From assembly GCA_015069095.1 (NCBI GenBank), contig SVJH01000015.1, forward strand, positions 1-53,303: a stretch of DNA of 53,303 bases, given 5' to 3'. The notes beneath the pieces were generated by a model. The model was not told the origin of the DNA. It saw nothing but the letters and a program-made list of their open reading frames with translations, and searched no databases. Source of the stretch: Oscillospiraceae bacterium (lineage in GTDB: Bacteria > Bacillota > Clostridia > UMGS1810). The position numbers were made by a program, and so were the translations under genes. This document shows, in pieces, positions 10,998-30,349 of the stretch (position 1 is its first letter; each line of letters opens with the position of its first letter).

Positions 10998-11032
10998 AAA
11001 AATTTAATATATGCATATTAAAATTTTAAGAT

Positions 11033-11187
11033 GATAGCTCTCCACATTCGTGACAGTCCGTTACATGTTCTGTAATGGCCCAGCATATACAATTATCAGG
11101 ATTTTGCATATGCTTCGGCGATATTTCCTTTTAGGCAATGGTACCTGAACTTTAAATTGCCTTACTTATAAATATCGCACCTCTATC
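11033..11187 (-). promoter_or_regulatory. Lysine riboswitch (L box)
   Basis: Minus strand, about 155 nt. It starts GATAGAGGTGCG and closes with GGAGAGCTATC, forming the P1 helix. Conserved internal pieces are present in order: AAGTAA, CGCCGAAGCA, GCTGGGCC, ACGGACTGTCAC. Together with the downstream terminator this gives lysine-dependent repression by termination in the 5' leader of the transporter gene. Confidence 0.93.
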
Positions 11188-11212
11188 TAAGTTAAAAAAA
11201 TATGTTATATAT

Positions 11213-28676: not shown

Positions 28677-28761
28677 GGGGAGGTTCCCGAGTGGCCAAAG
28701 GGGGCAGACTGTAAATCTGTTGCGTCTCGCTTCGGTGGTTCGAATCCACCCCTCCCCACCA
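28677..28761 (+). tRNA. tRNA-Tyr (anticodon GTA)
   Basis: 85 nt with a long variable arm (class II). Acceptor GGGGAGG/CCTCCCC, encoded CCA, anticodon loop CTGTAAA. Confidence 0.95.
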
Positions 28762-28770
28762 TATAAAAAA

Positions 28771-28804
28771 CCTCTTTTGTCTACCAAGACAAGAGAGGTT
28801 TTTT
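28771..28804 (+). terminator. Terminator of tRNA cluster
   Basis: 12-bp stem (28771-28782 with 28787-28798), ACCA loop, followed by TTTTTT. Confidence 0.9.
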
Positions 28805-28812
28805 ATAATGAT

Positions 28813-28969
28813 ATCCGTTCTATGCAGAACGGATGATATATCTTCGATATGATGTCTGCTTTGCAGATGATATACGCTTCGCGTATGAAGAGAACGGATA
28901 TTATATCATACTTGCGGTAAGCAAGTATATCATGCGGCAGAGCCGTATATCATATTGCGAAAGCAATAT
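28813..28969. repeat. Hairpin array 1 (TGATAT/ATATCA spacers)
   Basis: Seven short stem-loops of unrelated sequence stand side by side: ATCCGTTCT..AGAACGGAT (28813-28834), ATATC-TTC-GATAT (28838-28850), TCTGC-TTT-GCAGA (28855-28867), ATACGC-TTC-GCGTAT (28872-28886), ATACTTGC..GCAAGTAT (28908-28928), ATGCGGC-AGA-GCCGTAT (28932-28948) and ATATTGC-GAAA-GCAATAT (28952-28969). In the left half they are joined by ATGATAT, in the right half by its complement ATATCAT. A second AGAACGGAT (28891-28899) can pair with the first arm. The array lies between the tRNA terminator and the four-helix-bundle gene. Confidence 0.85.
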
Positions 28970-29024
28970 ATCATTGAAAAATGCAACATTTAATGATAAA
29001 ATTTACTCGAAAGAAGGTGCGTTT

Positions 29025-29378
29025 ATGTCTGAAAACAAATTATTGGATATGTCTTTTGAATTTGCAGTTGCTATTGTAAATCTTGTCGATGGTGTAACTG
29101 CACCCAAAAGTTCTTATATGACCGATCAGCTTGCAAGATCAGGCACATCTGTCGGAGCGAATATCCACGAGGCACAGTATGCACAAGGCAAAAAGGATTT
29201 TGTTTCAAAATTAGAGATTGCACTCAAGGAGTCTAACGAAACAAGTTATTGGCTGAAATTGATGTATGAAACAAAAAGAATAGATATTACTACTTATCAA
29301 TATACCGAGAAATTATGTGGAAATATCCGCAGACTTTTGATTGCTTCCTGCAAGACAGCAAAGGAGAATGCAAAATGA
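29025..29378 (+). CDS. Four-helix-bundle protein (S23/Avd-like)
   Basis: 117 aa from ATG 29025 (GAAGGTG six bases upstream); the open frame extends upstream through the hairpin array but that part is not protein-like. Core motifs of the family: LLDMSFEFAVAIVNLV, YMTDQLARSGTSVGANIHEAQYAQGKKDFVSKLEIALKES, ETSYWLKLMYE. Relatives are the protein encoded in 23S rRNA intervening sequences and the Avd accessory protein of diversity-generating retroelements, which binds nucleic acid as a pentamer. No reverse transcriptase or variable repeat is near. ATGA overlap with the next gene. Confidence 0.88.
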   Translation: MSENKLLDMSFEFAVAIVNLVDGVTAPKSSYMTDQLARSGTSVGANIHEAQYAQGKKDFVSKLEIALKESNETSYWLKLMYETKRIDITTYQYTEKLCGNIRRLLIASCKTAKENAK

Positions 29379-30034
29379 TTGCTATTGAAAACTTTATGAA
29401 TATATTTCTCAATGTCTTGAACGATACTTTTAGAGAGCGTGTTTGGTTTGTTGGTTTACAAGGCAGTTATGGTCGTGACGAAGCAACAGAAACAAGTGAC
29501 ATTGATGTTGTTGTAATTATCGACGAATTGTCTGCTATGGATATCCAAACTTATAATGATATGTTGGATACTCTGCCTCACAGAGAACTGATTTGTGGTT
29601 TTATTTCAGGCAAAGAAGAGATTATGAATTGGGAGCCATCCGACCTTTTCCAGTTTTGCCACGACACCACACCAATCAAGGGAAGCCTTGACGAAGTAAT
29701 GGCAGTTATTGACGAAAGTGCTGTGAACAGGGCGATCAAAATCGGTGTCTGTAATATATACCACGGATGTGCTCACAATATGCTTCATGAAAAAAGCGAA
29801 GATATTTTGCGAGGGTTATATAAATCGGCTTCTTTTGTTGTACAGGCAATTGCTTACAAGCAAACGGGGAGCTATATCAACCGTCAAAAAGAATTGCTCC
29901 AAGTTGTATCTTCCAATGAACAGGTCATTGTTGAAACATTTATGAATTTGAAAATTGGCGGAGCGATAGATTTTAATTTGATGTCCGAAACATTGTTTTC
30001 TTGGTCAAAGAAATGGATTTCAGAAAACAGTTAA
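29375..30034 (+). CDS. Nucleotidyltransferase-domain protein
   Basis: 219 aa, coupled by ATGA overlap to the four-helix-bundle gene. N-terminal polymerase-beta-type NTase: LQGSYGRDEATETSDIDVVV with the GS...DxD motif (about residues 29-47). The C-terminal half is all-helical, of HEPN or substrate-binding type (GVCNIYHGCAHNMLHEKSEDILRGLYKSASFVVQ). Such proteins transfer NMP or AMP to small molecules or proteins, as aminoglycoside adenylyltransferases or MNT antitoxins do. Exact substrate unknown. The pair lies between two hairpin arrays and may be a cassette. Confidence 0.82.
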   Translation: MIAIENFMNIFLNVLNDTFRERVWFVGLQGSYGRDEATETSDIDVVVIIDELSAMDIQTYNDMLDTLPHRELICGFISGKEEIMNWEPSDLFQFCHDTTPIKGSLDEVMAVIDESAVNRAIKIGVCNIYHGCAHNMLHEKSEDILRGLYKSASFVVQAIAYKQTGSYINRQKELLQVVSSNEQVIVETFMNLKIGGAIDFNLMSETLFSWSKKWISENS

Positions 30035-30100
30035 ACTAATTCAAATTTGTGAGTAGGTAGATAGATTTACGCATCAAATTACGTTTTTTTCAATGAAGCA

Positions 30101-30256
30101 TTCCTGCGGAACATTAAGTAGCCTCAGGCTATGAAGTCGCTTCGCGAATGATGTGTGCCTTGCGGCACATTTTGGAACGCTTCGCTTCATAAAGAATGCA
30201 AAGCAGATTTGCATTATAGTGGCAAAGCCACTGCTTCATATTTGCAGAAAGGCAAA
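30101..30256. repeat. Hairpin array 2 (ATGAAG/CTTCAT spacers)
   Basis: A second set of short hairpins follows the nucleotidyltransferase gene: TTCC-TGC-GGAA (30101-30111), TAGCC-TCA-GGCTA (30119-30131), TCGC-TTC-GCGA (30137-30147), GTGCC..GGCAC (about 30155-30168), ATGCAAA..TTTGCAT (about 30196-30214), AGTGGC-AAA-GCCACT (about 30218-30232) and ATTTGC..GCAAAT (about 30240-30257). Spacers are ATGAAG-like on the left and GCTTCAT on the right, so the array is inverted about its centre, as array 1 is, though with a different spacer word. No gene is seen in 30035-30421 apart from this array, a terminator and a promoter. Confidence 0.8.
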
Positions 30257-30310
30257 TGCTTCATTTAAAAGTATATTTTTTAATGTCCTAAACTGTTTGG
30301 TTTTTCCAAA

Positions 30311-30339
30311 AAACGCACTGAATTTCAGTACGTTTTTTT
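30311..30339 (+). terminator. Terminator after cassette
   Basis: AACGCACTG / CAGTACGTT imperfect stem, then TTTTTT. Confidence 0.7.
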
Positions 30340-30349
30340 ATTTTTATCG

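Follow-up and report, generated by a model that had tools for sequence, protein, structure and literature searches.

The window, that is, the whole stretch of 53,303 nt that was analysed (contig SVJH01000015.1), contains a tRNA-Tyr gene followed by an array of hairpins, a promoter, a gene for a four-helix-bundle (4HB) protein, a putative cargo gene and a second array. The parts, in window positions, are as follows.

28677–28761 (+): tRNA-Tyr(gta), the target side, whose 3′ CCA end is the junction; homology between the window and a related locus, L071, runs from the T-arm through CCA onward
28762–28807 (+): P0, a terminator-like hairpin (A-tract, stem, T-tract; inverted repeat I1) and first part of the putative cassette, common to L071, where it lies behind another tRNA
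28808–28974 (+): hairpin array 1, 4 + 3 hairpins with linkers ATGATAT, then ATATCAT
28811–28821 (+): 5′ strand of the long-range helix P1, also 5′ arm of hairpin 1; partner 28891–28901
28891–28901 (+): array centre, the 3′ strand of P1; partner 28811–28821
28974–29002 (+): promoter TTGAAA-17-TAAAAT, with a −35 box whose first base is the final one of the array; arrangement kept in relatives
29025–29378 (+): 4HB protein gene (23S_rRNA_IVP/S23/Avd fold; PF05635, TIGR02436, AlphaFold, PDB 2rld and 4dwl)
29375–30034 (+): cargo gene, nucleotidyltransferase (PF01909, 2.6e-6); its start overlaps the 4HB stop (ATGA)
30035–30089 (+): 3′ tail of cassette 1, truncated in the window; complete in L071, where it ends TTTCGCA
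30090–30264 (+): array 2, a second 4 + 3 array of another linker class (ATGAAGC/GCTTCAT), with no 4HB gene behind it
30308–30341 (+): terminator hairpin behind array 2, in a position that matches native terminators at other sites

P0 begins directly behind the CCA of tRNA-Tyr, to the left of the array, and the hairpin at 30308–30341 is possibly the original terminator of the tRNA operon. The hairpins of array 1 are listed below.

28813–28834: hairpin 1, 9 bp, loop ATGC
28838–28850: hairpin 2, 5 bp, loop TTC
28855–28867: hairpin 3, 5 bp, loop TTT
28872–28886: hairpin 4, 6 bp, loop TTC
28908–28928: hairpin 5, 8 bp, loop GGTAA
28935–28945: hairpin 6, 4 bp plus a G.T, loop AGA
28952–28969: hairpin 7, 7 bp, loop GAAA

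An earlier sequence-only reading had described seven hairpins with stems of 5 to 9 bp between ATGATAT-type linkers. All seven were found at 28813–28969, but the stems measure 4 to 9 bp, hairpin 6 having 4 bp plus a G.T, and the linker motif holds for the left half only, as the right half reads ATATCAT. The array thus consists of four hairpins between ATGATAT linkers, a centre, and three hairpins between the reverse-complement linkers, the centre being complementary to the first linker together with the arm. The same reading had noticed that one arm, AGAACGGAT, occurs twice, and it is indeed present at 28826–28834 and 28891–28899. The large enclosing hairpin that it had derived from this repeat can form as the helix 28811–28821 with 28891–28901, and this helix recurs in other linker classes with unrelated sequence. 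The fold of the array has a predicted energy of −64.1 kcal/mol with RNA parameters (z −5.47) and a z of −4.90 with DNA parameters; in either case none of 200 shuffles was as good. The mirror-image halves, the tRNA anchoring, the coupled 4HB gene and cargo, the mobility and the Rfam Gut-1 identity described here go beyond what that reading had reported.

Relatives were scanned for with the 4HB protein, and the best 80 of 469 confirmed relatives were kept (L071–L150). The same array was present in nearly all kept relatives whose sequence reaches far enough upstream, and its start was located by a regular expression in 71 of the 80. Exactly 4 + 4 linkers were counted in 58 of the 69 parsed arrays, and arrays with other linker words retain this plan. 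Since the number of hairpin units is nearly fixed, the growth by addition of units suggested by the sequence-only reading is unsupported. A simple tandem-repeat or CRISPR-like reading was also rejected, because the stem sequences are unrelated and the array has a fixed number of units. In three ATGATAT arrays (L074, L085 and L133) a similar insert lies at the centre, with TTATGAGCGAAGCGAATAACAAGGTTC ... GGTTCTTA in the longer ones. Linker orientation is swapped between the halves, with CAT-ending linkers first, in L160, L214 and L222, two of which lie behind a tRNA.

Covariation was scored in 62 aligned arrays (60 distinct rows) of the 69 including the window; odd-length arrays were excluded, 3 further loci were skipped for length, and hairpin 4 was left out of the scoring because MAFFT had misaligned it. 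Under a structure of 43 pairs, 98.3% of cells were paired compared with 89.7% after shuffling, and 22 of the 43 pairs had changed on both sides compared with 9.4 in the shuffles, a count reached by none of 500 shuffles. This signal was lost when the partner strand was slid. RNAalifold gave 44 pairs, with compensatory change in 20. In the aligned sequences, the architecture is therefore fixed under compensatory change, in agreement with the earlier proposal of a structured single strand whose stems vary under constant linkers. Array 1 is real and not a random cluster of palindromes, since arrays of the same plan occur in relatives and carry compensatory changes. P1 is nearly invariant within the ATGATAT class, where one pair shows change on both sides. 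Across linker classes, a perfect match of at least 8 nt of unrelated sequence was found between array start and centre (position 81–94) in 12 of the 19 arrays tested, the start coordinate being poor for some of the 7 arrays with no match.

In the scored stems, G.T cells outnumbered A.C cells by 79 to 10 with one constitutive G.T pair excluded; 37 of the 79 came from two columns, and the counts were 42 and 10 when these columns were removed. This excess indicates that the coding (+) strand is the folding strand, as RNA or single-stranded DNA. Of 58 relatives, 52 have the −35 box on the final base of the array and 50 have a promoter spacing of 17. Arrays of the tRNA-linked class follow a terminator and end where the 4HB promoter begins, so that only read-through of the terminator would bring them into the 4HB mRNA; this position speaks for DNA as the acting form, as does the insertion of cassettes alike whether or not they contain a 4HB gene. 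In favour of RNA, 7 of 11 arrays without a tRNA had a promoter matching at least 9 of 12 positions within 95 nt upstream (control, 144 of 1000), and in most such cases the −10 box sits just before the first hairpin.

Of the ATGATAT-class loci with enough sequence, 50 of 67 have a tRNA or tmRNA 3′ end no more than 70 nt ahead of their first linker, as do 10 of 21 loci from the remaining classes, compared with 20 of 20,000 random positions; about half of the non-ATGATAT arrays are thus not behind a tRNA. At least 9 of the listed misses end, by eye, in a tRNA-like CCA that was not called by ARAGORN. The upstream tRNAs comprise 11 amino-acid identities, counted by hand, plus tmRNA. Arrays collected by DNA pattern with no reference to the 4HB gene were also found behind a tRNA CCA (L202, L203, L214, L216, L217 and L218). 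In genome G114, many dispersed arrays with GTGATAT linkers (L205–L212) are not behind tRNAs; several lie at contig ends and one is near a 4HB gene. A second type of element, about 100–210 bp long, was observed after tRNA and terminator in L085, L106, L118, L128, L156 and L167; close to the left end of this element stands the reverse complement of the host tRNA T-arm, and at the right end the tRNA 3′ end, CCA included, is copied in direct orientation. In the first four of these loci it stands between tRNA and array, preceding P0.

The 4HB protein of the window matches PF05635 (3.6e-23; 82.2 bits, gathering score 33.8), and so belongs to this Pfam family, as well as TIGR02436 (2.5e-26). Its AlphaFold model (pLDDT 94.0) is a four-helix bundle, for which the best PDB match was 2rld of the S23 family (2rld_E, TM 0.85/0.92), together with 2gsc; the next match was Avd (4dwl, TM 0.78/0.85, E 0.02). 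A passage of PMC10053308 likewise states the resemblance of PF05635 to Avd. The S23 or 23S rRNA IVS protein and Avd thus share the fold and family of the 4HB protein of the cassette; as the source passages describe them, however, IVS are located within 23S rRNA genes and Avd acts together with a reverse transcriptase, and neither is true of the cassette protein. In a plasmid record of Monoglobus pectinilyticus (L151), a 4HB open frame that is not listed as a gene lies in a type I restriction system, flanked by hsdS and hsdR.

For a survey of linkers, 4HB genes were collected by family search, independently of any DNA pattern, and the sequence upstream was scored mechanically for 6-mers repeated ahead of their own reverse complement. 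Of 113 4HB genes with sufficient sequence, 92 had an array score of at least 6 upstream, compared with 5 of 1000 control stretches; outside the L071–L150 set the count was 22 of 39, with the window counted twice. Linker words other than ATGATAT upstream of 4HB genes included GCTAAAT, TGAAAT, ATGAAG, ATGAAT, TCGATA, TGAATT and more. Each of ten linker words was tied to one clade of the 4HB (PF05635/S23/Avd-fold) gene behind the array, and on a 4HB tree, for which 16 rows from L071–L150 were used, the ten classes needed 9 changes, the minimum possible. This agreement could be plain co-inheritance, which would account for part of it; the concerted change of all eight linkers, however, does not follow from co-inheritance.

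The default Rfam scan gave no match at array 1; elsewhere in the window it gave a lysine riboswitch at 11027–11193 (−) with 107.3 bits. At a relaxed threshold, RF01706 (Gut-1) matched the left half of the array at 28806–28878 (+) with 46.2 bits, whereas the right half matched on the opposite strand only (28922–28996 (−), 38.1 bits), both below the gathering score of 50. The alignment covers model positions 1–77, with three hairpins between repeated linkers on one strand. Other ATGATAT-class arrays exceeded the gathering score (62.9, 59.2, 58.6 and 51.4 bits in L089, L123, L108 and L084), and TGAAAT-class arrays reached 66–74 bits (L089, L040, L058, L018 and L166). In the passage on this motif in Weinberg et al. 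(2010; PMC2864571), Gut-1 is judged 'certainly RNA', with no cis-regulatory role and found only in the human gut. Its consensus, hairpins between UGAAAU linkers, corresponds to the left half of the TGAAAT-class arrays. The model comprises 77 nt and three hairpins, whereas the full element, anchored at a tRNA and accompanied by a 4HB gene, has 4 + 3 hairpins around a centre and occurs with many linker words. Because the TGAAAT-class and several ATGATAT-class arrays pass the gathering score, the arrays are Gut-1-like elements seen whole, and Gut-1 is best read as a fragment of the array of a tRNA-anchored mobile cassette.

Evidence of mobility came from comparisons between loci. The window and the L071 cassette are 99.0% identical over 1354 bp but lie behind tRNA-Tyr and tRNA-His, respectively, with different DNA on the right, and homology between loci with the same cargo extends mainly from P0 to the tail; the same cassette thus occurs behind different tRNAs. 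At a tRNA-Tyr gene in two congeners (G015 and G012), the full site L157 contains exactly 1034 bp more than the empty site L158, between CCA and terminator. This is the one complete empty/full pair with both flanks (left, 1717 of 1752 nt identical; tRNA, 85 of 85; right, 438 of 467), and the insertion lies exactly 3′ of a short target with no duplication beyond CA. The insert holds P0, an ATGATGT-class array, a 200-codon gene and a tail ending CCCA, and it contains no 4HB gene, which implies that the 4HB gene is not required in cis. These congeners also differ at tRNA-Thr, where one site is full and one empty (the left flank alone was matched), and at tRNA-Glu, where two different cassettes are found. 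From genus to genus within the family, the array at the tRNA-Tyr site belongs to one of at least four linker classes or is absent. Cassettes of different classes stand in tandem in L089, L105 and L108, and solo arrays are represented by array 2 of the window and by L218. In L038 (genome G010), the unit of array and 4HB gene is itself in tandem, with three array copies seen. Most loci come from metagenome-assembled genomes, in which misassembly is possible at a single locus, though not in dozens alike.

The cargo gene varies from locus to locus. By hand count, an ATGA-type overlap joins the 4HB stop to the following start codon in 40 of 80 loci, and 45 cargo proteins match 38 Pfam families, of which the 25 listed include acetyltransferases, methyltransferases, nucleotidyltransferases, phosphatases and DUFs. 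Behind the cargo, 20 of 73 loci have a conserved tail with the ending TCTTTCGCA, compared with a background of 67 of 2000; it is usually followed by another terminator hairpin or the next P0. No duplicated tRNA 3′ segment was found at the cassette tail; tails end in ..CGCA or ..CCCA whatever the tRNA. Hairpins on one strand are evident at the left end; at the right end, inverted repeats were seen by eye in L157, and the common ATGATAT-class tail has no clear hairpin.

An inserting enzyme or a vehicle was also searched for. No recombinase or transposase, including Y1 TnpA and tyrosine recombinase, was found in the window cassette or in the 25 listed of the 38 cargo families. A generic PF00589 search gave tyrosine recombinases for 15 of 16 family genomes; 30 integrase loci were fetched, and no array lay near any of them. 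Y1 genes, including long RAYT-like ones, were present in 13 of the 16; by hand count they occurred in 17 of 23 genomes with the 4HB gene and 23 of 37 without it, which indicates no link, and no array was near 12 fetched Y1 loci. Four long Y1 proteins with a C-terminal HTH-like extension (L236, L237, L244 and L246), which we take to be RAYT-like, have no hairpin array near them. No guide tetranucleotide was noticed by eye at a hairpin foot. The RVT_1 reverse transcriptase was found in none of the 16 family genomes, 13 of which carry the 4HB gene. A viral or plasmid vehicle was rejected: viral_contigs gave no match for 4HB relatives or for the array or tail patterns, plasmids gave no match for the cassette, and phages gave a single 120-bp 4HB fragment in one unannotated record.

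We propose that the array is probably a recognised structure that forms the left end of a small mobile gene cassette, one that inserts directly 3′ of the CCA of tRNA and tmRNA genes in gut Clostridia. The apparent plan of this cassette is P0, the 4 + 3 array, a promoter, usually a 4HB gene, often one variable cargo gene, and a tail. The + strand, as RNA or single-stranded DNA, would fold into P1 plus the hairpins; the cognate 4HB protein might then bind the folded array through the repeated linkers, a step that we regard as possible rather than probable; and the complex would mark the cassette, which an enzyme provided in trans would then insert.

Among the other explanations, it is rather unlikely that the array acts as a non-coding or leader RNA (Gut-1 RNA), regulating the 4HB protein or serving as its partner, and travels on the cassette with no part in insertion. 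The match of the left half to RF01706, with the verdict 'certainly RNA' in that passage of PMC2864571, the coding-strand fold with G.U wobbles and the promoters ahead of the tRNA-less arrays agree with it, but the terminator and promoter that bracket the array in the tRNA-linked class do not, and solo arrays and a cassette with no 4HB gene are also inserted at tRNA ends. Retro-insertion, with the array RNA and the Avd-like 4HB protein serving a reverse transcriptase, would accommodate the Avd fold known from diversity-generating retroelements together with the coding-strand fold, yet it is highly improbable given genomes that carry the 4HB gene and no RVT_1. One study is said to have found that hairpin clusters can terminate transcription. 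That the array is a neutral or terminator-like palindrome cluster with no further role is nevertheless extremely improbable: the topology is fixed at 4 + 3, the linkers change in concert, and among the sequences compared this reading is contradicted by covariation, by array–4HB linkage and by tRNA linkage.

Two further explanations concern the enzyme. A tyrosine recombinase acting in trans could join a structured cassette end to tRNA genes, as in integron cassettes or tRNA-site islands; tRNA targets, tandem one-gene cassettes, the lack of target duplication beyond CA and the presence of such recombinases in 15 of 16 family genomes agree with this, but we consider it unlikely in view of tails with no duplicated tRNA 3′ end, targets among tRNAs of many specificities and fetched integrase loci with no array nearby. 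Single-strand transposition of the IS200/IS605 or REPIN kind, with the hairpins recognised by a host Y1/HuH transposase that places the strand 3′ of CCA, is decidedly unlikely. It would explain the strand-specific left-end hairpins, the insertion 3′ of CCA by an insert that itself ends CCCA or CGCA with no other duplication, and the frequent Y1 genes; against it stand the missing association of Y1 with the 4HB gene or with arrays, the lack of a tetranucleotide guide by eye and the common tail with no clear hairpin.

Returning to the array as a recognised cassette end, we tentatively suggest a class of cassettes that is undescribed in the papers searched, in which a complex of the 4 + 3 strand and its cognate Avd-fold protein would target the 3′ CCA of any tRNA gene and add single cargo genes. 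The linker words would be concerted specificity codes, giving parallel, mutually blind systems in one genome, and Gut-1 would be the recognition end. The literature search, which did not extend to later Gut-1 papers, brought up no paper recognised as dealing with these arrays or with 4HB–tRNA cassettes. Gut Clostridia may swap single genes between tRNA sites in this way, which points to integron-like single-gene traffic with precise insertion and no visible recombinase. Eight linkers changing in step with the protein clade offer an unusually clean case of possible co-evolution of nucleic acid and protein, testable in vitro with one small protein. The orphan Rfam family Gut-1 and the widely annotated, unexplained 'four helix bundle protein' genes would both gain a context and a testable role.

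Integron gene cassettes (attC) are small and promiscuous, end in a structured single strand, stack in tandem and rely on an enzyme in trans, features they have in common with the tRNA-anchored cassettes. The latter differ from them in having tRNA CCA targets, a promoter of their own in each cassette and the structured module at the 5′ side, and no integron integrase was found in the generic PF00589 search. The double-hairpin elements of fungal mitochondria resemble the arrays as mobile hairpins with variable stems and constant flanks, but they belong to a eukaryotic organelle and have neither a protein partner nor tRNA targeting. Diversity-generating retroelements depend on a reverse transcriptase, which none of the 16 family genomes contains. 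IS200/IS605 elements insert with no target duplication, as the cassette does. A passage of PMC6006769 describes IS200/IS605 and REP/REPIN elements as having hairpin ends that are strand-specific, inserting 3′ of a short target and including non-autonomous copies, which likewise holds for the cassette, where the hairpins are clear at the left end; the cassette, in contrast to IS200/IS605, has no TnpA or recognised guide tetranucleotide, bears 7-hairpin arrays with linkers and has a tRNA target. Tycheposons, according to a passage of PMC10872708, are elements of 4–200 kb with a tyrosine recombinase and cargo anchored at tRNA genes. They and other tRNA-site islands resemble the cassettes as cargo elements at tRNA genes, whereas the cassettes measure about 0.6–1.4 kb and show no tyrosine recombinase in the window cassette or in the 25 listed of the 38 cargo families. 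As a whole, the cassette fits none of the families compared, and the left half of its array is an RNA motif that has already been described.
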